Part shown: in pieces, positions 5,993 to 21,863 of the stretch | Layout of the letters: every line of letters starts with the position of its first letter | Position numbering within the stretch: the first letter of the stretch is position 1 | DNA from: Planctomycetaceae bacterium | GTDB taxonomy: Bacteria > Planctomycetota > Phycisphaerae > Phycisphaerales > SM1A02 | Assembly (NCBI GenBank): GCA_021297815.1 | Contig: JAJTGK010000016.1 | Span: 1 to 40,483 of the forward strand | Direction of reading: 5' to 3' | Length of the DNA: 40,483 bases | Translations under genes and position numbers: made by a program | The notes under the pieces: generated by a model | Seen by the model: the letters and a program-made list of their open reading frames with translations, nothing else | The model's database searches: none | Told to the model about the DNA's origin: nothing

Positions 5993-6047
5993 GGTGCCTG
6001 GCACGTGCCGTGCAGTGCCTGGCACTGCCTGGCACGTGCCAGGCACC
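5993..6047. repeat. 55-bp palindromic repeat, copy 1
   Basis: A 55-bp element with perfect 17-bp inverted arms (5993-6009, ggtgcctggcacgtgcc; 6031-6047, its reverse complement) around a 21-bp centre. The centre holds a second palindrome (agtgcc-t-ggcact). It can fold as a long hairpin or cruciform. Copy 2 at 6136-6190 is identical in all 55 bases and in the same orientation. It sits directly upstream of the minus-strand cytochrome/DUF1553 gene. It resembles a REP- or MITE-type dispersed element, but no transposase is seen. Confidence 0.9.
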
Positions 6048-6135: not shown

Positions 6136-6190
6136 GGTGCCTGGCACGTGCCGTGCAGTGCCTGGCACTGCCTGGCACGTGCCAGGCACC
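6136..6190. repeat. 55-bp palindromic repeat, copy 2
   Basis: Identical to the element at 5993-6047 and in direct orientation, separated from it by 88 unrelated bases. The arms are 6136-6152 and 6174-6190. It lies between the first copy and the tRNA-Leu terminator. The complete identity of two such elements so close together suggests recent duplication, gene conversion or a mobile origin. Confidence 0.9.
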
Positions 6191-11513: not shown

Positions 11514-11573
11514 ACATCACGCGATCTCACATCACGCGATCTCGCATCACGCGATCTCACATCACGGGGATTT
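11514..11573 (+). repeat. 15-bp tandem repeat in imuA upstream region
   Basis: Three near-identical copies of acatcacgcgatctc (11514-11558) are followed by a degenerate fourth. It is outside any supported gene. It belongs to the series of short tandem repeats spread over the following 10 kb. Confidence 0.85.
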
Positions 11574-11819
11574 CACCGCGCGCGTTCGTGCGCTGAAACT
11601 CGCAGGCCAGCGTTGTCTCGATGTCGCGTGACTGGAGACATCGGGCACGCGTGTTTGCGTGTGGCCTGCACCGCGTGATGTCCGCGCGGCGTCGTGCGTG
11701 ATTCCGCGGAGCCTTGTGCCATGAGGCAGGGCGCGCGTATCCCCCGTTCGAGGATCACTCGCTCGGCAATCACGAGAACTGAGACAGGCAAAGGCGAAGG
11801 GAACGAAAGAAGGAAGGCA

Positions 11820-13889
11820 ATGGTCACTCGACAGTTGCAGACATCACGCGCGTATCGGCATCAAGGAAATCCGCATCAAGAATCCATGGCTCAGGAATGC
11901 ATGGCACAAGAATGCATGGCACAAGAATGCATGGCACAAGAATCCATGGCACAAGAATCCATGGCACAAGAATCCATGGCACAAGAGCGTGGCTTTGACG
12001 GAAATCCCGCATGTTCACGGCATCGTTCGATGGTCGAGGCGTCGCTGGAGCGTCTGGACGAGCCGTGCGGCGTGGAATCGTCTCGCGGCCGCGCGGCGCA
12101 AACAGGCAGCGTCCAGCAGCATGCAGCTCGTCTTGCGATCGGCAGAGAGGTGTTGCGTTCGAGGTCCGTGTCGGCATCGATGCAGGAGCAGCGCGATGAC
12201 GCCGCCGGCGCGTTCCGCGACGATGCTGCTTTGTGCGATGACGGCCATGAAGCTCCGTGCCGCCCACCTGCGACGCGGAGGTTCCAGCCACGGTCGCAGC
12301 GTCGCATCGCTGCGGCGACCATGGTTCGGATCGCGCTTGAGCAACGAGAGAACCTCCGCGGCTCCGATGCGGACTTGCATGATTCGCCGGTCTGCCCGTC
12401 GCCGCTCCTGCCGACGGGGGCGCCTGAAGCCTCGCGCCCACCGGGCGCCGACGGAGTGCGGGCGATTTCATGTGCGCAGGCGAAGCCCGTATCGCCGTCG
12501 CGTGGCCATGTGCCGCGCATTTCGCTCGGATGCCCCGAGATCGATGCGCTGCTCGGCGGCGGACTTGCGCGCGGCGCCATCCATGAGTTGATCGGAGTTC
12601 GCGGAAGCGAGCCAGGCGGAGCGCTGCGTCGCAGCGGCAGCGGATGGCTTCCACCCTTCGCATGCATCATCTCGATGGTCCATCTCGCGCTGCAGGCTTT
12701 CGACGCAGAGCCCGATACCGAGGGCGGCGCATGCGTGGCTTGGATCGGCCAGAGGATTCATCCGAGCCCCGACTGCTTCGCGGATCTTCCAATGGTCCTG
12801 CGCCGTGACGGCGCCAGAAACGGCGCCAGAAACGGCGACAGCGATGACATCATCGGCAGCCGCGGTGTGTCCCCCGATGCCACCACCAGCCTTGGATTTG
12901 CGCTGCTCCAAAGATCCCTGTTCGTGCACGATGCAATGTCGGCGAGATCAAGCCATGTGCAAATCCAGCCGCGTTCTGGCTTGTCGGGGGCGCGGCGCAT
13001 CCTCGGCGACTCTTCGCGATCTGCGCAGAAGTCGGGGCGGGCATCGTCGGCACGCTCGCGCGGAGCGCCAGCGCCGTCATCTTCTGCGGCGGCCGAATCG
13101 CGTGCATGGTGTGCGGAGCAGGCGATCCACCTTGGCGCCGCCAGGATCATCGTGCTCGACGCCAACGGGCTCTGCCCGCGCTCGTGGCGTCGGCTCCAGT
13201 TGGCCGTCGCATCGTCTCCACACATGCCGGTCGTGTTGGCCGTTTCAGCGCCCTGCAGCGGTGACCGTTGGGATTCGGGTCGGTTTCATCCGACCGCCAC
13301 GCGCTGGTCGGTCGAGCCGGCGCTCGACGGGTCTCCGGGTACTTCGGGTACCTCGGGTACCTCGGGTACCTCGGGTACCTCGGGTACCTCGGGTACCTCG
13401 GGTGCTTCGGGTGCTTCGGGTACTTCGTGCGAAACCCCGTGCAGATTCCGAGGCGTCGAGGCATGCCCTGGTCAGCCTGTCGATCGCACGCAGGAAGACT
13501 CCAAGTCGGCATGGAGTGAACCGACGCAGCTTGAACCAGCATGGAAAGTCGTCCTCCGCTCCATTCGTGCCGTATCGCTTGATGTCGCCGCGTTGGAAGA
13601 GGGAATCGGTCCTCGTGCATCGGAACTCGTCGGGCTTCTCGAGTCGGGCGCGATGTCGCTCCGCGTCGTGTTGCCGCGGGCCTCGGAAGGGTACGGCGCA
13701 TGGAACCATCTCGAGCAGCGCGTACTCGCGGGAGCTATCCGCACGCACGCGACCTGGGATCGGTCCACGGCCGCAAGCGCGTCGACGGCTTCATGGACGG
13801 ACGGGGCGATCGGCCACGATGGCATCGCGGAGGGAGCGCAGCGGAGGACGATGTCGGGGACGCCTGCATCGCAGACCCATGCCGCGTGA
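11820..13889 (+). CDS. imuA: ImuA-like protein (RecA-related mutasome component)
   Basis: Probable ImuA, which works with ImuB and DnaE2 in damage-induced mutagenic translesion synthesis. The start at 11820 follows a strong GGAAGG ribosome binding site. The conserved core begins near residue 232 (ISLGCPEIDALLGGGLARGAIHELIG, a RecA-fold entry) and continues with CVAWIGQRIHPSP and a region with RSWRRLQLAVA that corresponds to the ImuA RRLQLA motif. A C-terminal beta segment (AWKVVLRSIRAVSLDV) follows. No Walker A lysine is seen after HELIG, as is common for ImuA. At 689 residues it is far longer than usual ImuA (roughly 230-300). The excess is a low-complexity N-terminal 230 residues with a seven-unit MAQE(S/C) repeat, and internal insertions including ten GTS/GAS units. 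It overlaps imuB by 11 bases. Confidence 0.78.
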   Translation: MVTRQLQTSRAYRHQGNPHQESMAQECMAQECMAQECMAQESMAQESMAQESMAQERGFDGNPACSRHRSMVEASLERLDEPCGVESSRGRAAQTGSVQQHAARLAIGREVLRSRSVSASMQEQRDDAAGAFRDDAALCDDGHEAPCRPPATRRFQPRSQRRIAAATMVRIALEQRENLRGSDADLHDSPVCPSPLLPTGAPEASRPPGADGVRAISCAQAKPVSPSRGHVPRISLGCPEIDALLGGGLARGAIHELIGVRGSEPGGALRRSGSGWLPPFACIISMVHLALQAFDAEPDTEGGACVAWIGQRIHPSPDCFADLPMVLRRDGARNGARNGDSDDIIGSRGVSPDATTSLGFALLQRSLFVHDAMSARSSHVQIQPRSGLSGARRILGDSSRSAQKSGRASSARSRGAPAPSSSAAAESRAWCAEQAIHLGAARIIVLDANGLCPRSWRRLQLAVASSPHMPVVLAVSAPCSGDRWDSGRFHPTATRWSVEPALDGSPGTSGTSGTSGTSGTSGTSGTSGASGASGTSCETPCRFRGVEACPGQPVDRTQEDSKSAWSEPTQLEPAWKVVLRSIRAVSLDVAALEEGIGPRASELVGLLESGAMSLRVVLPRASEGYGAWNHLEQRVLAGAIRTHATWDRSTAASASTASWTDGAIGHDGIAEGAQRRTMSGTPASQTHAA
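11881..11985 (+). repeat. 15-bp tandem repeat, 7 units, in imuA
   Basis: Seven units of aat(g/c)catggcacaag encode the pentad E(S/C)MAQ. Units 2-4 carry aatgc and units 5-7 carry aatcc; the first has ggctcagg. Every unit contains an in-frame ATG, so unit number does not alter the frame and several internal starts exist. Near-perfect DNA identity indicates recent slippage expansion. Confidence 0.97.
12810..12833 (+). repeat. 12-bp direct repeat, 2 units, in imuA
   Basis: Two exact tandem copies of ggcgccagaaac encode GARN-GARN within the ImuA core, just before the FALLQRSLFVHDA segment. This is a minimal repeat but it fits the pattern of in-frame duplications in this cassette. Confidence 0.8.
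13338..13427 (+). repeat. 9-bp tandem repeat, 10 units, in imuA
   Basis: Ten uninterrupted 9-bp units ggt-(a/g)c(c/t)-tcg encode seven GTS, two GAS and one GTS. Six consecutive units are identical in sequence (ggtacctcg). The run sits between the RRLQLAVA segment and the C-terminal beta segment of ImuA, presumably as a flexible linker. The array is prone to slippage that would change length without shifting frame. Confidence 0.97.
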
Positions 13890-16800
13890 TGGAGCTGCCT
13901 CGGGAAGCCGCGGCGGCGCCGGCGAGAATCTCAGCCAAGGCACCGTCGCGGCGCATGCGCCGAACCTCGACCATGAGGCTGTCGATGCCGTCGACCGTCG
14001 CGATGGCAGCCCGCGCGCGCGTCGGTTCTTGGCCATCGACTTTCCGCAGTTCCTCGTGGACTTGGCAAGGCGCATGCTCTGTCGCACGGCCGAGCGGCAC
14101 GGACTTCAGCATGAGCGATCGAAGGTCTCTGCGCACGATTCGGTCTTGCCGCCATCGAATGCAGACGACGCTGCGGTTGAAGGCCGCACCGAGGCCGTGG
14201 CGTCGGGCGCCACCGACTTGACCCGTGAAAGGCTGGTGCAGTGGCCGTGTGTCGTCATGCATGCACATCGCGGGTCATGGCGGGTGCTGCAGGCCTGCCG
14301 CGGCGCCATGGCACATGGCATCCAGCCCGGCATGAGCATGGTCGAGGCGGAATCGAGATGTGCCGACGCTACGTTTCAGAGGCGGGCCGTCGAACACGGC
14401 ATGTCCGCCGACACATGCGCCCGCATCGCCCGTCACTGGATATCCGCTCGCGGCGGCGAGTTCCATGATGGTGGTGGCGGCGGCAGCGGCGTGCTTGCCG
14501 CGACACCGCGCATGGTCGCCATCGATGAGAGGTCGCTGCGGGCCGAGGCGGCGCTGGTACGCATGGCCCATTGCCTCGAGCGTTGGATTCCACGGGTCGG
14601 CGTCGTTCGCAGCGACGGCATCCCGTCGGAGTCGCAGCAACTTTGTTTGGATTCGGCGGGGTTCTTCGGGCTCGTGGGGGAGTTCACAGGATGCGAGGCG
14701 ATCTTCCGCCGCTTGCACGGCAGCGAGCGCATGCTGGCCGTGCGGGTGCGCGATGTATTCATGCGTCGCGGCTTCCTTGCCAGCGTCGGCACTGCGTCGA
14801 CCGTCGGCAGCGCGATCGCCGTCTCGCGGCATGCAGACGGTGTCGCCGTCGTCGTGTCGGGCAAGGAGCGTGAGGCACTCGCATCGCTTCCGGTCGAGTC
14901 GCTGCGCATACCGCGCGAAGACGCGACCCTGCTGCACGCGGTCGAGGTCCGCCGCATCGGTCAGCTGCTCGAACTTGGACGGCGTGGGCTGGCAGCGCGG
15001 CTGGTGGGGCGGCACCCGTCGGCGACGGCCGAAACGCGCATGCAGTCCACGGAGGCGACATGGGCGTCGGCAGGTGGCCGTCCGGTTCGTCGCCGCGCGC
15101 GGTCGGCGGGGAGGCCGGGCGATGCAGGCGGCATGATGGCGCTTCCGCTCTTTGCCACGGCGTTCGGCCCGGAAGAAACGCCCGGAACGGCCGCGGCATC
15201 GGCCAGCGTTTCTCGCGGGTGTCCACGGCTCGAGGAAGCTGTTCTCCGTCGGCTCGACCAGGCGCTTGGACTACGCGAGGAGGCGGTCGAGTCGGTGCAG
15301 CATGCAGAGCGAATCGCGTTCGTGCGCGACTTCGATGCGCCCATGGCTTCGCCCGATGGGCTTATGGTCGCGTGCGGCGAGATCCTGGCGCGGCTTTGCG
15401 CGCGGTTCGACAAGGATCGGCGCGCACTGCGCCTGGCACGCATCGACCTGCACCATGCCCGTGTTCCCGCCTCGAACGAGAGCATCGGAGCACCCCGCAT
15501 CGATCGCACCTCGATCGAACTCCGTCTTCTCAGGCCAAGCGGAAGAGCCGTGCATCTTTGGACCATCCTGCGGCCGCGGCTCGAGACGGTGTCGCTCGAA
15601 TACGGCGTCGAGCGGATCGAGCTCGAGGTACTGCAGAGTGTCCTTCGCAGGTTCATGCAGCGCGGCTTTGCATGGTCGGACTCGCCGGGCCGACCGCGTC
15701 TGGCGCGAGGTGCGCCGCTTCAGCCGATGAGCCGCGATGGGACGCGCGGCTCCCCAGGCAGCCCCGTCATGCAGCAGGCTCGAGGCGCAGCTGCCTGTCC
15801 GCATGATGTACCGCCAGGCTGGCGCGCGTGGCCGCGTGATGCCGCAGGCAGAACATCGCAGTCGCATGTCGCGGATGCGCGGTTCGTCCCGTCGCGAGCC
15901 CTGCGCGAGTGGATCGACCTCGTGCAGTCGAGGCTGGGGGAGCATGCCGTTCGCCAGCACGGCATGCAGCGGTCCTCTGGCCGTGCAAGTCGGTCTGGCC
16001 ACGAACTGCCGCTTGCCTGCAGCGTGCGTAGGCCGGCCTTGCGGTTCGACCGCCCTCAGCGCGCCGTACTGCATGTCGCAGATGCCGATGCAGATGCCCG
16101 TGCAGATGCCCGTGCAGATGCCCGTACAGATGCCCGTACAGATGATCGACATGACACGAGATGCCTTCGCGCTTGCGGCAGCGCACAACGGAACCTCCAT
16201 GAGCCATACGGCCCCATTCACGCCGGCAACCACGCCGGCACTCAGCATGTCGCCCATTCTCTCGCCCACGATGCCGCCCACGATGCTGCCCACGATGCTG
16301 CCCACGCGATCGCCCGCGCCATCGCGCAGAGAACGGCGTGGAGCTCCACGCCGCACGGCGTTGAAGACACCGTATGCCGCTCGAACGACGGTGCATGCAT
16401 GGCCGAACGCTCCACGGTGCCGAGCGGCACCGCGATCGATGGCTACGACCTGACGAAACGCCGTTGGCCGATGCTGTACTGGAGCGGGGTCGCACATCGA
16501 GTCCATGCCATCGATGCATGGGAGCGTCTGGCCGACCCATGGTTCGCCACGGCCTCGACCGAAGGCGGTCATTCAGGAGCTCTGCAGCACGGCGCGTCGG
16601 ATTCGGAGCCGCACACCCAGGCGAATGCCGGCACGGGCGCTCCCTGCGCCATCGCATCGGACGGGCGCCATGTGGCCGAGGGCATCGGACGCACGGCCGT
16701 ACAGAGCGGGCGCGTCTGGTCTCGGATCCAGATCGACGGAGGAATCTGGCTGCATGTTCGATGGCCGCGGCATTTCCGACGCGAGATAGGCACGGCAGCG

Positions 16801-17238
16801 CATCGTGATGTGCATGCCGACCGCACGACATGTCTCGGCGGTCAGGATTTCATCACTCGAAGCTTCACAACTCAAAGCTTCACAACTCAAGGCTTCACAA
16901 CTCAAGGCCTCACAACTCAAAGCTTCACAACTCAAGGTCTCACAACTCAAGGTCTCACAACTCAAGGCCTCATCACTCAAGATGGCCTCCTGCACATCGC
17001 CTCCGATCTGGAAAAGCCGATGTTGGGCGAAGCGTCGTGCCCGAGGTCGACGCAGCACGCGCGTCAGGAGCATGCATCGTCAGATGCCGTGGGCCATGGC
17101 GAGCATCCTGCGGCATCGATCGGCCGCTGGGAGGCGGCACGCGTGGTTCCCTGCGCATGCGAGCGCTGCTGGGTCCGAGGGTGTGCCGCATCGCTGCGCG
17201 ACGGCGTCGAGATCGAGATCGCGGGGGTGTGGTCATGA
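13879..17238 (+). CDS. imuB: ImuB-like inactive Y-family polymerase (mutasome hub)
   Basis: Probable ImuB, a Y-family polymerase relative that lacks catalysis and links the beta clamp, ImuA and DnaE2. The ATG at 13879 overlaps imuA by 11 bases and is the last good start before the first palm strand (RFLAIDFPQFLVDLARR, Asp-54). Other matches are the GIQPGMSMVEAESRCADA motif, the LCLDSAGFFGLVGEFTGCEAI strand (Asp-258, without the SIDE-type catalytic pair), the fingers (RVRDVFMRRGFLASVGTAST), a helix-hairpin-helix-like RRIGQLLEL, and a little-finger-like part with HLWTILRPRLETVSL. The C-terminal (RVWSRIQIDGGIWLHVRW) matches the ImuB tail. It has 1119 residues against roughly 500-550 in the family. 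The excess is mostly after residue 620 and includes three tandem-repeat tracts. Codon choice is more mixed and less GC-rich than in neighbouring genes. Confidence 0.82.
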   Translation: MPRDGAASGSRGGAGENLSQGTVAAHAPNLDHEAVDAVDRRDGSPRARRFLAIDFPQFLVDLARRMLCRTAERHGLQHERSKVSAHDSVLPPSNADDAAVEGRTEAVASGATDLTRERLVQWPCVVMHAHRGSWRVLQACRGAMAHGIQPGMSMVEAESRCADATFQRRAVEHGMSADTCARIARHWISARGGEFHDGGGGGSGVLAATPRMVAIDERSLRAEAALVRMAHCLERWIPRVGVVRSDGIPSESQQLCLDSAGFFGLVGEFTGCEAIFRRLHGSERMLAVRVRDVFMRRGFLASVGTASTVGSAIAVSRHADGVAVVVSGKEREALASLPVESLRIPREDATLLHAVEVRRIGQLLELGRRGLAARLVGRHPSATAETRMQSTEATWASAGGRPVRRRARSAGRPGDAGGMMALPLFATAFGPEETPGTAAASASVSRGCPRLEEAVLRRLDQALGLREEAVESVQHAERIAFVRDFDAPMASPDGLMVACGEILARLCARFDKDRRALRLARIDLHHARVPASNESIGAPRIDRTSIELRLLRPSGRAVHLWTILRPRLETVSLEYGVERIELEVLQSVLRRFMQRGFAWSDSPGRPRLARGAPLQPMSRDGTRGSPGSPVMQQARGAAACPHDVPPGWRAWPRDAAGRTSQSHVADARFVPSRALREWIDLVQSRLGEHAVRQHGMQRSSGRASRSGHELPLACSVRRPALRFDRPQRAVLHVADADADARADARADARTDARTDDRHDTRCLRACGSAQRNLHEPYGPIHAGNHAGTQHVAHSLAHDAAHDAAHDAAHAIARAIAQRTAWSSTPHGVEDTVCRSNDGACMAERSTVPSGTAIDGYDLTKRRWPMLYWSGVAHRVHAIDAWERLADPWFATASTEGGHSGALQHGASDSEPHTQANAGTGAPCAIASDGRHVAEGIGRTAVQSGRVWSRIQIDGGIWLHVRWPRHFRREIGTAAHRDVHADRTTCLGGQDFITRSFTTQSFTTQGFTTQGLTTQSFTTQGLTTQGLTTQGLITQDGLLHIASDLEKPMLGEASCPRSTQHARQEHASSDAVGHGEHPAASIGRWEAARVVPCACERCWVRGCAASLRDGVEIEIAGVWS
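16078..16149 (+). repeat. 12-bp tandem repeat, 6 units, in imuB
   Basis: Six units of (g/a)cagatgcccgt encode ADAD-ADAR-ADAR-TDAR-TDDR-like tetrads. The three central copies are identical. The repeat lies in the long, poorly conserved C-terminal half of ImuB and keeps the frame. Confidence 0.95.
16264..16311 (+). repeat. 12-bp tandem repeat, 4 units, in imuB
   Basis: Units of gcccacgatgc(c/t) encode AHDA three times, followed by a degenerate AHAI unit. A pair of 12-bp units encoding HAGN-HAGT lies shortly upstream at about 16219. The frame is preserved. Confidence 0.92.
16846..16980 (+). repeat. 15-bp tandem repeat, 9 units, in imuB
   Basis: One degenerate unit (16846-16860) and eight near-perfect copies of (a/g)g(c/t)(t/c)tcacaactcaa encode the pentad (S/G)(F/L)TTQ. 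The tract is strikingly AT-rich against the surrounding sequence. It falls after the conserved WLHVRW tail motif, near the ImuB C-terminus where clamp and partner contacts are usually found, so copy number could alter the spacing of an interaction surface. Confidence 0.97.
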
Positions 17239-17384
17239 ACCTACCGCCATGCCTTCTTGTGCAACGGTGCACCGTGCAAGCGCATGCAGTGAAGGCAAGC
17301 GCTCCGCAGGCACGCGCTGCGGAGTCCGACACTCGTGCGGCGCCGCGCCTGCGTCGCTACGGTCGAGGAGGCGGCGATGCCTGA
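17235..17384 (+). CDS. 49-codon ORF bridging imuB and dnaE2
   Basis: The ATG of this ORF overlaps the imuB stop as ATGA (17235-17238), and its own TGA (17382-17384) lies inside the first three codons of dnaE2. The predicted peptide begins MNLPPCLLVQRC and ends RRYGRGGGDA, and has no recognisable domain. Its position suggests a coupling ORF that carries ribosomes across the 138-base gap to the dnaE2 start; it could also be fortuitous, or the remnant of a fused reading frame. Confidence 0.4.
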   Translation: MNLPPCLLVQRCTVQAHAVKASAPQARAAESDTRAAPRLRRYGRGGGDA

Positions 17385-20300
17385 GCAGCCTCCGCCCAAG
17401 TTGGTCGTGCATCCGGCGTTGTCGAACCCGCGCGTGCATCCCGCTTCAGCAGCCGACGACGGCGTCGCATCGATGCGCCATCGGCCTCCATGCGTGCCCC
17501 GCCGGCGTATCGCCGCGATCGAAACCACCAGCTGCCACTCGTTCCTGCGCGGTGCAAGCCAGCCCGAGGAACTCGTCGCCCATGCGGCGCGCCTCGGGCT
17601 CGATGGGATGGGGCTCTGCGACCACGCGACGGTGGGTGGGGCGGTGCGCGGCCATGTGGCGGCGCGGGATTCTGGCCTGCCGCTGGCGCAGGGTGCGCGC
17701 GTGTTTCTCGACCTACCCGAGCATGCGCCGCTCGAGATGCTGCTCTACGCGAGCGACCGTGCGTCGTGGGGCGCCCTGTGCGCGATGCTCACCAAAGGAA
17801 AGCGCGCCGCACGCAAGACGCATTGCGCTCTGACCGTGCATGACCTCGTCGAGGTGCTTCGCGCACGACAGCACGGCGGTGGCGCGGCGGGCGAGGGGCT
17901 ACTCGCGGTGCTGATCCCTCCGCGGGTTCCCGCCCAGCCGTTCCTCGAGGCGGCGGAAGGCCTGGCCGCGCTCATGCACGAGCGGTTGGCCGTCGCCGTG
18001 CGTCGCGTCGACGACCCCGACGGCGTGGTCGACGCCGAGCGTGCGCTGGTGCTGGCACGCTATCTCGGCGTGCCGCCCGTGGCCGCCTGCGACGCGCGCA
18101 TGCACGACGCCTCGCGTCGTCCGCTCCTCGATGTCCTCGCCTGCATCCGTCAGCAGACCGACATGGCGCGTGCCCCGCACCTCGTCTCGCGCAACGGCGA
18201 GCGCCGGCTCCATGCGCCCGACGAACTCAAGCGCCGCTACGCCGACCTGCCCGAGGCCCTCGAGTGGTCGTGGCGGCTGGTCGAGCGCGCCTCGGCGTTC
18301 TCGCTCGACATGCTGCGCTACGAGTATCCGGCGGAACTGGTGCCCGAGGGCGTCACCGCCATGGATCACCTGCGCGGACTCGTGCGCCACGGGGCGGCCG
18401 AGCGCTATCCGTACGGCGTGCCGCCCAAGGTCCTTCGCCAGTTCGAGCACGAGTTCGCCATCATCGAGGACCTCGGCTACGCGCACTACTTCCTCACGGT
18501 GCACGAGATCGTGGCCTTCGCACGCTCGCGCGGCATCCTCTGCCAGGGCCGGGGCGCGGCTGCGAACAGCGCCGTGTGCTTCGCGCTGGGCGTGACGGCG
18601 GTCGATCCCGATCGCGTCGATGTGCTCTTCGAGCGCTTCATCAGCCGCGAGCGCAACGAGCCGCCCGACATCGACATCGACTTCGAGCACGAGCGGCGCG
18701 AGGAGGTGATGCAGCACATCTACGCGAAGTACGGCCGCAACCGTGCGGCGCTGGTGGCCGAGATCATCAGCTACCGTGGCCGCAGCGCCGTGCGCGATGT
18801 GGGGAAGGCGCTCGGCTTCTCGCCCGATGCCATGGCGCGCCTCGCCAACGAGGTCGACCGCTGGACTGGCGGCGGGCTCGGAAGTCGCGACGATGCAGGC
18901 GAGGCGTTCTTCGGCGACGACGGCGACCCCGCGTCGCCCCCCGAGCTCGCGCCGCAGGCGGCCGAGCGCGTCCGCGCCGCAGGCCTCGACCCTGCGTCGC
19001 CTGGCGTGCGGCACCTCGCGCGGCTCGTCGGACAGATCCTCGGCTTTCCGCGCCATCGCTCGCAACATGTGGGCGGCTTCGTGATCTCGAACGGCCCCTT
19101 GTGCGAGTCGGTGCCGATCGAGAACGCCGCCATGCCTGGCCGCACCGTGATCGAGTGGGACAAGGACGACATCGAGGCGCTCGGCATGCTGAAGATCGAC
19201 ATCCTGTCGCTCGGCATGCTGACGGCGATCCGCAAGACGATCGACTTGGTGAACGGAGACCGCATGGCGCTGGCGGCGGGGGCGTCGCCTTGCCGAGCCG
19301 CCGACGCGCCCGACCCGCGGCCCGATTTTGCGTGCACGGGTCCTTCGTCGCGTCTCCCGTTGGATCCGCGGCCGAACGCGAGCGCGGCCGTTTCTCCAAC
19401 CAGCGCTCCAGCCAGCACGCCTCCTGATGACGCGTCTTCCGCCGCGGTGGGCGTCTTCGCCGAACCCGCGGTCGAGCCGCTGCGCTTCCACGCGATTCCC
19501 CCGGAGGACGGGCAGACCTACGACATGGTGTGCAAGGCCGACACGGTGGGCGTCTTCCAGATCGAGTCGCGCGCCCAGATGTCGATGCTGCCGCGCCTGC
19601 GGCCGCGGTGCTTCTACGACCTCGTGATCGAGGTCGCCATCGTGCGGCCCGGGCCGATCCAAGGCGACATGGTGCATCCGTACCTGCGGCGCCGGAATGG
19701 CGAGGAAGCCACGGTCTACCCCGACGACGCCGTGCGCAAGGTGCTCGGCAAGACGCTCGGCGTGCCGCTCTTCCAGGAGCAGGCGATGTCGCTCGCCGTG
19801 GTCGCGGCGGGCTTCACCCCTGGCCAGGCCGACGAACTGCGGCGCGCGATCGCCGCGTGGAAGCGGCAGGGGAACCGTATCGCGCAGTTCGGCGCCCTAC
19901 TCGAGGAGGGCATGGTGTCGCGCGGCTACACGCGCGAGTTCGCGCGGCAGGTCTTCGAGCAGGTGAAGGGGTTCTCGGGGTATGGGTTTCCCGAATCGCA
20001 TGCGGCGAGCTTTGCGCATCTGGTCTACGCCAGCGCATGGCTCAAGCGGCATCATCCTGCGGCCTTCGCGGCGGCGCTGCTCAACAGCCAGCCGATGGGC
20101 TTCTACGCGCCCGCCCAGCTCGTGCGCGACGCACGCGAGCACGGCGTGGCGGTGCGCGCGGTTGACATCCACTGCTCGCGCTGGGACTGCACGCTGGAAC
20201 GCGGGCCCGACCTCGCGGCTGAACTCGCGACACGGCAGGGCGCTGCGGTGGCCGACGGGCTCTTCGGAAGCGCCGAACCCGTCGGCCACGCGCCACCGCG

Positions 20301-21651
20301 TGCTTCCGCCGCGGCGTGGGGTGGCCCAGAGATCTATCGCTATCGCGGATCGCACCAGGCCTCGCGAAACCCCGCCGTGTGCCATCTCGCTTCACGAAAC
20401 CTCGGCACGGTACGGATCGACGCCGACCCCGCAGGCATGGCCCGTCCGCATGTCGAAGATTGGAAGGGCGACGCCACGCCAGCGCGCGGATGGACACGCA
20501 CCTTCGCCGCCTCGCGGCGCAGTGTGCCTGACGCAGTCCTGTCGGAAGCGAACCTGCTCCACGCAGAGGGCAGCATGCCCGTGTCGCCACGCTTCGTCCA
20601 TGCGCGCGGCAAGAGCGTGCTCTGGATGTCGGATGACGAGACAGGGGCCGCGATGGATGACGCACGAGATGGCACTCGGGCCGGATACGCCACAGCGGCC
20701 TATCGCGCCGAGCCTCTCTGCGCTCCGTCGGCGGGACTCGTCGCTGACCACGCGCCCGACCCCAAGCGCTTCGCGGTCCCCACGCAGCCATGCATACGGC
20801 TCGGGCTGCGCATGGTGCGCGGCCTCGCGGTCGAGGACGCCCTGCGCCTCGTCGACGCGGTCGTGCGATATGGATCGTTCGGATCGATGGCCGAACTCTC
20901 CGAACGCACGGGCCTTTCCGCCGCGCCGCTGCGGCGGCTGGCAGCGGCCGATGCGTTCCGTTCGATGGGCCTCGATCGCCAGCAGGCGACCTGGCAGATC
21001 CTGGCGCTGCGCGATCGTGGGCGCGTGTTGTGGTCATTCGCTTCCGAAGCACGCGACGCCGCGAACGGCACGCAGGCGACTCCACACGGCGCGGCATGCG
21101 CCGAAGCTGCATGCCCTCCAAGCACATCGGCCGCGCAGCACGCTGACGACCGTGTCGACGACCGTATCGACGACCGTATTGATGATTACGAGCCTGCGCT
21201 GCCACGCATCCACGAGCTGGACGCGATCGCACGCGACCTCGAGTCGACGGGCGTCGCGCTGTCAGGCCATCCGATCGCCTGCATCCGTGCGAAGCTCGAC
21301 CGCATGGCGGTGACCCGCTGTGGCGAGTTGCGCGATGAGGACCGCGTTCCGACCAGCACCCGCGTGTCGGTCGCAGGCATCGTGCTGGTGCGCCAGCGCC
21401 CATCGACCGCCAAGGGCATCGTCTTCATGACCATCGAGGACGAGTCGGGCATCGCGAACCTGATCTACCGACCGAAGGTGTACGAGCGCGTGCGTGCCGC
21501 CGTGCGGCACTCGGTCGCGGTGCGCGTCGAGGGCCAGGTCGAGCGTCGCCACGGCGTGGTGCATGTGCTGGTACGAAGCGCCCGAAGCCTCGACAAGCTC
21601 CTCGGGCAGGAAGGAGGGGCGATGACATCGCAGTCGCGAGACTTCCACTGA
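17377..21651 (+). CDS. dnaE2: Error-prone DNA polymerase III alpha subunit, DnaE2
   Basis: C-family polymerase that performs mutagenic bypass with ImuA and ImuB. The ATG at 17377 follows a GAGGAG ribosome binding site. The PHP domain begins near residue 48 (SCHSFLRGASQPEELVAHAA), in the DnaE2-specific form. The palm has GRGAAANSAVCFALG and the catalytic PDIDIDF motif (Asp-431/433/435), with a further conserved Asp-608 in MLKIDILSLGML. GVFQIESRAQMSMLPRL and VRPGPIQGDMVHPYLRRR follow, then FPESHAASFAHLVYASAWLK. The C-terminal OB domain (VAGIVLVRQRP to VHVLVRSARSLDKLL) is complete. It has 1424 residues against roughly 1000-1100 in the family. Extra segments lie at about 625-700 and 965-1140, rich in Ala, Pro, Arg and Ser, with a DDR(V/I) repeat later. 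All catalytic motifs remain, so it is probably active. Confidence 0.95.
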   Translation: MPEQPPPKLVVHPALSNPRVHPASAADDGVASMRHRPPCVPRRRIAAIETTSCHSFLRGASQPEELVAHAARLGLDGMGLCDHATVGGAVRGHVAARDSGLPLAQGARVFLDLPEHAPLEMLLYASDRASWGALCAMLTKGKRAARKTHCALTVHDLVEVLRARQHGGGAAGEGLLAVLIPPRVPAQPFLEAAEGLAALMHERLAVAVRRVDDPDGVVDAERALVLARYLGVPPVAACDARMHDASRRPLLDVLACIRQQTDMARAPHLVSRNGERRLHAPDELKRRYADLPEALEWSWRLVERASAFSLDMLRYEYPAELVPEGVTAMDHLRGLVRHGAAERYPYGVPPKVLRQFEHEFAIIEDLGYAHYFLTVHEIVAFARSRGILCQGRGAAANSAVCFALGVTAVDPDRVDVLFERFISRERNEPPDIDIDFEHERREEVMQHIYAKYGRNRAALVAEIISYRGRSAVRDVGKALGFSPDAMARLANEVDRWTGGGLGSRDDAGEAFFGDDGDPASPPELAPQAAERVRAAGLDPASPGVRHLARLVGQILGFPRHRSQHVGGFVISNGPLCESVPIENAAMPGRTVIEWDKDDIEALGMLKIDILSLGMLTAIRKTIDLVNGDRMALAAGASPCRAADAPDPRPDFACTGPSSRLPLDPRPNASAAVSPTSAPASTPPDDASSAAVGVFAEPAVEPLRFHAIPPEDGQTYDMVCKADTVGVFQIESRAQMSMLPRLRPRCFYDLVIEVAIVRPGPIQGDMVHPYLRRRNGEEATVYPDDAVRKVLGKTLGVPLFQEQAMSLAVVAAGFTPGQADELRRAIAAWKRQGNRIAQFGALLEEGMVSRGYTREFARQVFEQVKGFSGYGFPESHAASFAHLVYASAWLKRHHPAAFAAALLNSQPMGFYAPAQLVRDAREHGVAVRAVDIHCSRWDCTLERGPDLAAELATRQGAAVADGLFGSAEPVGHAPPRASAAAWGGPEIYRYRGSHQASRNPAVCHLASRNLGTVRIDADPAGMARPHVEDWKGDATPARGWTRTFAASRRSVPDAVLSEANLLHAEGSMPVSPRFVHARGKSVLWMSDDETGAAMDDARDGTRAGYATAAYRAEPLCAPSAGLVADHAPDPKRFAVPTQPCIRLGLRMVRGLAVEDALRLVDAVVRYGSFGSMAELSERTGLSAAPLRRLAAADAFRSMGLDRQQATWQILALRDRGRVLWSFASEARDAANGTQATPHGAACAEAACPPSTSAAQHADDRVDDRIDDRIDDYEPALPRIHELDAIARDLESTGVALSGHPIACIRAKLDRMAVTRCGELRDEDRVPTSTRVSVAGIVLVRQRPSTAKGIVFMTIEDESGIANLIYRPKVYERVRAAVRHSVAVRVEGQVERRHGVVHVLVRSARSLDKLLGQEGGAMTSQSRDFH
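21145..21192 (+). repeat. 12-bp tandem repeat, 4 units, in dnaE2
   Basis: Units gacgaccgt(g/a)t(c/t) encode DDRV-DDRI-DDRI, followed by a diverged DDYE unit. It lies just before the C-terminal OB domain. The frame is maintained. Confidence 0.9.
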
Positions 21652-21843
21652 ACGATTGGGCAATGTGCTGCCGACGCTCGATCGTCGCCGTTGACCGCGT
21701 TGTGGCGCCTCGATGCAGAACTGCCTCGAGGCATGTCCCTCGACACCCTTTCAGCGGGGAGCCTTCCGAACGGCGGCGAGGCCTCGACGATCTTCGCCGT
21801 ACTTTGAACGCAGACCACAAGGTGAGGTGCTGTGCGTCGTGCC

Positions 21844-21863
21844 ATGGCATGGCATGGCATGGT
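21844..21863 (+). repeat. 5-bp tandem repeat between dnaE2 and the small lipoprotein gene
   Basis: ATGGC three times plus ATGGT lies in the 295-base spacer 21652-21946, which otherwise shows no supported gene or terminator. It is the only tandem repeat of this region whose unit is not a multiple of three, and it lies outside coding sequence. Confidence 0.85.

Follow-up and report, generated by a model that had tools for sequence, protein, structure and literature searches.

Mutagenesis operons with the gene order imuA-imuB-dnaE2 encode a complex, the mutasome, known from Mycobacterium and Caulobacter. Variable-number tandem repeats (VNTRs) and intragenic minisatellites are usually reported in surface or intergenic loci of bacteria. 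Here we describe a locus in a planctomycete, Planctomycetaceae bacterium (assembly GCA_021297815.1; 3,032,785 bases or 3.03 Mb in 180 contigs, 88% complete), where contig JAJTGK010000016.1 carries an imuA-imuB-dnaE2 operon crowded with short tandem arrays; the whole contig of 40,483 bases is termed the window below. These arrays are probably explained by a slippage process common to the lineage and by relaxed selection that guards little more than the reading frame, the operon being unusually tolerant of inserts.

The locus shares with the described mutasome its gene order and a DnaE2 that satisfies the family model, and possibly a Y-family fold of its ImuB-like protein; it differs in longer ImuB and DnaE2 proteins, in its many young arrays and in ImuA and ImuB products that curated models hardly recognise. 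As in bacterial VNTRs and minisatellites, near-identical units stand head to tail beyond chance, in-gene periods are multiples of three and one congener gives a hint of copy-number change, but here a single operon is packed with many unrelated arrays, which turn over from species to species. Like contingency loci, in which simple-sequence repeats serve phase variation, it bears slippage-prone repeats both within genes and in upstream DNA; unlike them, its in-gene units of 9-24 bp keep the frame, provide no frameshift on-off switch and are not conserved. A further parallel comes from long-read work in Lake Biwa, an excerpt of which describes disproportionately many structural variants in Planctomycetota, with noncoding deletions frequently at intergenic tandem repeats (PMC9426551). 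Phylum, habitat type and the tie between deletions and tandem repeats are common to both, whereas the repeats of that excerpt are intergenic and mutasomes go unmentioned in it. In the literature searched on imuB, dnaE2, error-prone polymerases, mutasomes, repair genes and mutators, freshwater Planctomycetes and intragenic repeats, no title or abstract opening described tandem arrays in mutasome genes.

Short tandem arrays at the imuA-imuB-dnaE2 operon

Arrays were called with Tandem Repeats Finder (TRF) and, unless stated otherwise, counted under a strict filter (periods of 6-30, 2.7 or more copies, match at least 88%, indels at most 1%). Eight pass within positions 11514-21179 of the window, with units of 9-15 bp in or just upstream of imuA-imuB-dnaE2; seven of them lie inside the operon frames, and the rest of the window holds none (Table 1). 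A first-pass annotation, made from the letters alone, had listed at least seven arrays and one 5-bp array within about 10 kb, all of which TRF reproduced together with one more in imuA. Chance was ruled out as their source, since 200 second-order Markov and 200 codon-shuffled versions contained no such array.

As a background from the same genome we sampled 40 of the 180 contigs (587,888 bases), which hold 10 arrays and at most three in any 10 kb. The operon, with seven arrays in 9,958 bp, is about 41-fold denser, an excess that ranges from 31.8- to 59-fold across four strict filters and is only 4.7-fold in this genome when all merged TRF rows scoring 50 or above are included. The same contrast in two congeners reaches 27-fold (G013, whose background includes two arrays from its own mutasome flank) and 13.5-fold (G012), or 10.8-fold and 5.2-fold with all TRF rows of score at least 50. 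The sampled remainder of the genome is therefore not equally dense, and the earlier claim that arrays concentrate at a mutasome is borne out by a strong local excess.

The identity of DnaE2 is certain: the product scores 1242 bits against NF004225 (error-prone DNA polymerase; cut-off 939) and carries the Pfam domains PHP, DNA_pol3_alpha, finger, HHH_6 and OB. The names ImuA and ImuB are putative and follow from gene order, seen in the window and in relatives, and from weak matches, for ImuB also from a predicted fold. The ImuA candidate reaches 21.5 bits against NF033429 (ImuA_translesion), under the cut-off of 150, with a weak RadA match besides, and tblastn gives 24-38% to the genes in the same position in relatives (56% in one 34-residue piece). 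The ImuB candidate reaches 20.7 bits against IMS (PF00817), under the cut-off of 23.2; its AlphaFold model, with a mean predicted local distance difference test (pLDDT) of 58.6, has Y-family polymerases as best Foldseek matches (E 2.3e-11).

The arrays look young. Their units are near-identical, and in the 15-bp array of imuA the TGC (C-type) and TCC (S-type) units lie largely in separate contiguous blocks, a pattern to be expected from the copying of units once a base had changed. Across the genus loci and flanks all 63 of 63 units are distinct, even after rotation and reverse complement. In genome G013 the end of contig C11 overlaps the start of C1 just upstream of imuA, where two unique sequences, 40 and 54 bases long, are identical; between them an 11-bp unit stands in 5 copies on one contig and 7 on the other, and an adjoining 12-bp array differs too. 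This overlap alone hints directly at within-population variation, and an assembly error is possible. The first-pass annotation had spoken of recent slippage: the recency agrees with these observations, and we infer that polymerase slippage rather than recombination made the arrays. As a separate observation, contig ends of G002 (L063 1-353 and L247 9674-10026) overlap within conserved dnaE2 at 97% identity (342/353), and this bin may mix two strains.

It is highly improbable that the arrays are artefacts of assembling metagenome bins. All genus genomes are fragmented (30 to 730 contigs) and in two congeners (G010 and G015) a dnaE2 array contains an N-gap or ends at one, yet loci rich in arrays stem from several different projects and water bodies, the in-gene periods always keep the frame and unit variants are ordered in blocks. 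The split dnaE2 of G010 and G015 was rejected as a case of frame change, the break sitting at N-gaps where the frame is unreadable. An enrichment of contig breaks at the locus was also set aside: contig ends are common there, a hand estimate based on contig numbers shows no excess, and the argument draws solely on the two N-gaps at arrays and the G013 overlap.

Reading frame and insertion-tolerant linkers

Inside the mutasome genes all 43 periods are multiples of three, 12 being the commonest, and the periods of the flanks are 10, 11, 12, 13, 14, 15 and 28. Over the wider open frames the count is 48 of 50; the exceptions, 11 and 13, probably fall in non-coding 5' extensions of the imuA frame. 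The same filter is visible elsewhere in the genomes, where coding DNA has 25 arrays in 1.30 Mb, every one with a period that is a multiple of three, and intergenic DNA has 34 arrays in 168.5 kb with mixed periods; this split rests on our own gene caller, which misses imuA and imuB in the window. In-frame periods in genes beside mixed periods between them indicate that arrays arise at any length and are then sieved by selection on the reading frame. Inside genes the data contradict frameshift switching, because length changes in multiples of three cannot switch the frame.

Within the proteins, the arrays occupy positions that compact homologues lack. Twelve DnaE2 arrays, one of them from another genus of the family (G031), lie to a mean fraction of 0.985 in columns missing from compact homologues against 0.30 under random placement, or 0.971 when a faulty row of the seven compact sequences, the 97-aa fragment L127, is taken out. 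For 19 ImuB arrays, of which one again comes from G031, the fraction is 0.89 where random placement gives 0.48, and one locus, L056, clearly departs from this (0.17); a further two arrays within the long ImuB frame of the window were excluded here as part of imuA. In the predicted model of ImuB, the segment of the 15-bp array has a pLDDT of about 30.

The proteins are correspondingly long. ImuB measures 784-1275 aa at the genus loci read (1119 in the window) versus 502-697 aa outside, where long forms occur in G031 (850 aa) and G047 (763 aa); DnaE2 measures 1352-1688 aa in the genus versus 1072-1339 aa in relatives outside, and some other family members have DnaE2 open frames of 1350-1618 aa. 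After TRF arrays of score 40 or more are masked, identity at lag 12 is still 0.293 against about 0.284 at neighbouring lags, and unmasked coding DNA elsewhere has a smaller rise (0.321 against about 0.318). This residual rise suggests that some linker sequence derives from arrays that have decayed.

From these observations the following course of events can be proposed. Slippage throughout the lineage would generate short tandem arrays, mostly with units of 10-20 bp, across the genus. Intergenic arrays would persist at any unit length, and in-gene arrays would persist only at insertion-tolerant sites and in whole codons, most often as 12-bp units. New arrays would then expand, mutate and decay, leaving species-specific low-complexity linkers that lengthen the proteins while the polymerase core stays conserved. 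The operon is the densest place found, probably because ImuA, ImuB and the inter-domain linkers of DnaE2 are little constrained in this lineage beyond the frame and some core blocks. The complex itself presumably still works.

A different role for the same linkers would be selected array length, with in-frame linkers and the arrays upstream of imuA tuning mutagenesis between cells as a graded contingency locus. We regard this as very unlikely, although copy number differs between the overlapping contigs of one congener and arrays recur in every genus genome with a readable locus: no unit is shared between loci, like arrays sit in unrelated linkers and in intergenic DNA, and in-gene changes are unable to act as a frame switch. 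The first-pass annotation had offered two ideas, a hypermutable locus that tunes its own protein length and relaxed selection. The tuning finds no support, given periods in multiples of three, units that are never shared and the presence of similar arrays, less densely, both in intergenic DNA and in InfB, DnaX and RecA linkers; hypermutability of the locus corresponds to the cis hotspot weighed below, and relaxed selection is the better supported idea.

Relaxed constraint versus a locally raised rate

The genes of the operon differ widely in constraint. Median best-local-alignment identities among congeners are 0.785 for RecA, 0.79 for InfB (at least one pair without alignment counted as zero), 0.78 for DnaE1 and 0.75 for DinB, and 0.63 for DnaE2 with its inserts, 0.32 for ImuB and 0.33 for ImuA. 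When only core columns of DnaE2 are compared, the median of 45 genus pairs is 0.73 (range 0.69-0.82). Three compact genome pairs keep ImuB at 42-48% where DnaE2 stands at 62-67% (64-69% in core columns), from which it follows that ImuB diverges much faster per change in DnaE2 within the genus. Codon bias in imuB is also weakened in the genus: GC content at third codon positions (GC3) is 0.08-0.21 below that of neighbour genes in all seven usable loci of nine (L060 has no comparison gene and L062 is out of frame), versus -0.07 to +0.05 in six of six compact relatives. The imuB of G031 is also lower (0.54 vs 0.64 in one gene). For Y-family proteins that lose their active site, an excerpt of earlier work describes relieved selection and faster sequence evolution (PMC6511836).

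Arrays are found in other genes with linkers as well. Among control genes, infB has 6 arrays in 45 kb, dnaX 4 in 23 kb and recA 3 in 20 kb (1.3-1.7 per 10 kb); mutL, with the longest frame taken, has 1 in 22 kb, and none was found in dinB (16 kb), in recJ (8 kb, four loci) or in the coding flanks of the mutasome loci (111-113 kb). Expressed per indel-tolerant residue, the mutasome genes carry 36 arrays in 13.0 kb (27.7 per 10 kb; five terminal imuA arrays left out) versus 13 in 3.6 kb (36.3 per 10 kb) in the controls, p 0.39. The local excess probably owes more to relaxed selection than to a higher local rate.

Several observations weigh against this explanation. The equality per tolerant residue is to some extent circular, because an array is itself a source of indels. 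In the genome of the window the operon exceeds intergenic DNA 9.4-fold (7 in 10.0 kb vs 5 in 66.8 kb, p 3e-4), and across the genus the operon frames exceed it 2.2-fold (49 in 108.8 kb vs 34 in 168.5 kb, p 2e-4). Arrays are also enriched in intergenic DNA no more than 1.5 kb from the operon, at 8 in 10.1 kb (7.9 per 10 kb) vs 2.0 per 10 kb elsewhere (p 0.002). The DnaE2 core is somewhat less conserved than DnaE1, and the other two ImuB arrays of the window fall in predicted partly helical segments of low to middling confidence.

The two comparisons with intergenic DNA and the enrichment of nearby non-coding DNA speak for the main rival, a hotspot in cis at which tandem duplications arise faster in genes and flanks alike, for example through transcription induced by the SOS response or through local gap repair. 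We consider such a hotspot unlikely: at these loci the more distant intergenic DNA has almost as many arrays (6 in 10.5 kb, 5.7 per 10 kb), the flanking coding DNA has no array in 111 kb, the core of DnaE2 at the same locus is almost as conserved as DnaE1 (0.73 vs 0.78), and the density per tolerant residue, with the circularity noted above, does not differ from that of InfB, DnaX and RecA. A more elaborate version, in which the mutasome or repair at the induced operon would raise the duplication rate, hit its own operon most in cis and, by linker variation, keep mutagenesis strength polymorphic in natural populations, seems quite unlikely to us.

Distribution, neighbouring features and significance

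A DnaE2 match was accepted as real in 14 of the 15 other genus genomes, and G006 gave none. The loci read, complete or partial and three of them short remnants, come from these 14 congeners and the genome of the window. All 15 genus genomes with a readable locus have arrays; these total 43, the seven of the window among them, over 103 kb of gene span, and of the two contig pieces from G002 one is free of them. Lengths and units are not fixed among relatives. In another genus of the family, G031 has 3 arrays in 7.7 kb, and a third genus (G098) has 17 TRF rows of score at least 50 in 9.5 kb, of which 5 pass the filter and some others have long units. G091 has two passing arrays and G114 none in the part read. 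Nine more loci of the family or order (L066-L074) have 0 to 3 near-perfect short arrays per mutasome span. Among other named planctomycete records, L106 has 3 arrays, L107, L109 and L117 have one each, and no arrays were found in L108, L110, L112, L113, L118 and L119. The named relatives are mostly planctomycete metagenome bins (Lake Zurich ZH-13MAY13-plancto13, 44 and 70; Erken; a pond; Phycisphaerales; 'Phycisphaera sp. RI_241'), and two labelled Kuenenia are taken as mislabelled. Units of 72-120 bp with 96-98% match also occur in the mutasome region of G098, beside its short arrays (L366 1915-2333, 5595-5772 and 7414-7627).

The picture is different in 57 distant loci, taken as outside Planctomycetota and split off by locus number (at least one, L134, is titled Planctomycetota), where one array was found in 393 kb at the mutasome and four in 728 kb beside it; arrays as a general property of mutasomes are ruled out by this count. 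It also makes it very improbable that the mutasome makes the arrays, with error-prone gap filling by ImuB and DnaE2 duplicating DNA genome-wide and its own tolerant operon showing the effect best: the four sampled array-bearing genomes (G000, G012, G013 and G031) all carry a mutasome, but so do these DnaE2 loci that are nearly array-free. Loss of mismatch repair or of RecJ was rejected as a common cause, with MutL above its family cut-off in 11 of 16 genus genomes and RecJ in 14 of 16, that of the window included. In a single case, G012 (98% complete), no MutL match exceeds the cut-off (28.6 bits), and among the three genus genomes sampled this one is the densest in arrays.

Table 1. Genes and tandem arrays of the mutasome region; positions are those of the window.
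Feature	Position	Strand	Location	Details
15-bp array x3.5	11514-11566		upstream of imuA	TRF
22-bp imperfect repeat x2.1, 80%	11673..11719		upstream of imuA	TRF; fails the strict filter
imuA-like gene	11820..13889	+		689 aa; ATG start putative; frame open from 11694
15-bp array x7.3	11877-11986		in imuA	TRF; QE(S/C)MA
12-bp array x2.8	12808-12841		in imuA	TRF; GARN; absent from the first-pass list
9-bp array x10.2	13336-13427		in imuA	TRF; GTS
imuB-like gene	13879..17238	+	overlaps end of imuA	1119 aa; ATG start putative, from sequence
12-bp array x5.6	16078-16144		in imuB	TRF; DARA
12-bp array x3.7	16262-16315		in imuB	TRF; HDAA
15-bp array x7.8	16865-16981		in imuB	TRF; FTTQ with G or S
dnaE2, error-prone DNA polymerase	17335..21651	+		up to 1438 aa
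12-bp array x2.9	21145-21179		in dnaE2, insert absent from compact DnaE2 proteins	TRF; DDRI
5-bp array CATGG x4	21843-21862		downstream of dnaE2	TRF

Other repeats of the genome are of different kinds. Two palindromes were the only further repeats that the first-pass annotation had seen in the window, and they belong to a genome-wide palindromic element: a unit of about 55 bp stands in two direct copies, 143 bp apart (5994-6046 and 6137-6189), beside tRNA-Leu. Similar units, 59 matches if both strands and incomplete pieces are included, occur throughout the genome, often paired at similar spacing with an unconserved spacer, and look like a paired element of the repetitive extragenic palindrome (REP) type. 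Longer tandem repeats with 88-bp and 73-bp units, similar units being found at more than one place, lie in L039 (5022-5430 and 12659-12959), L053 (281-569) and L087 (3045-3575) of the same genome.

Candidate regulatory palindromes were seen as well. A CGAAC(N3-4)GTTCG palindrome lies upstream of imuA in three congeners (L055 4141, L056 4852 and L061 4760; one with a 3-base spacer) and resembles a GAAC-N4-GTTC LexA box; such sites number 7 in 1.28 Mb of sampled DNA, and the window has no exact match to a GAAC-N4-GTTC-like palindrome. Upstream of recA, a palindrome ACAGAA-GAGCGGA-TTCTGT recurs in 6 of 13 genomes examined (L349, L350, L351, L354, L356 and L357, the last with GATCGGA) and is a possible operator.

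These genes also carry a warning for annotation: assembly gaps can break mutasome genes of this kind, and curated family models can overlook them. Beyond this, the locus offers a natural system for measuring the rates of birth and loss of in-frame minisatellites in bacterial genes, and a clean test of the idea that a mutagenesis locus may be intrinsically unstable. In one genus and at least two further genera of the family, array turnover appears to drive most of the evolution of a mutagenesis operon whose catalytic core remains conserved.

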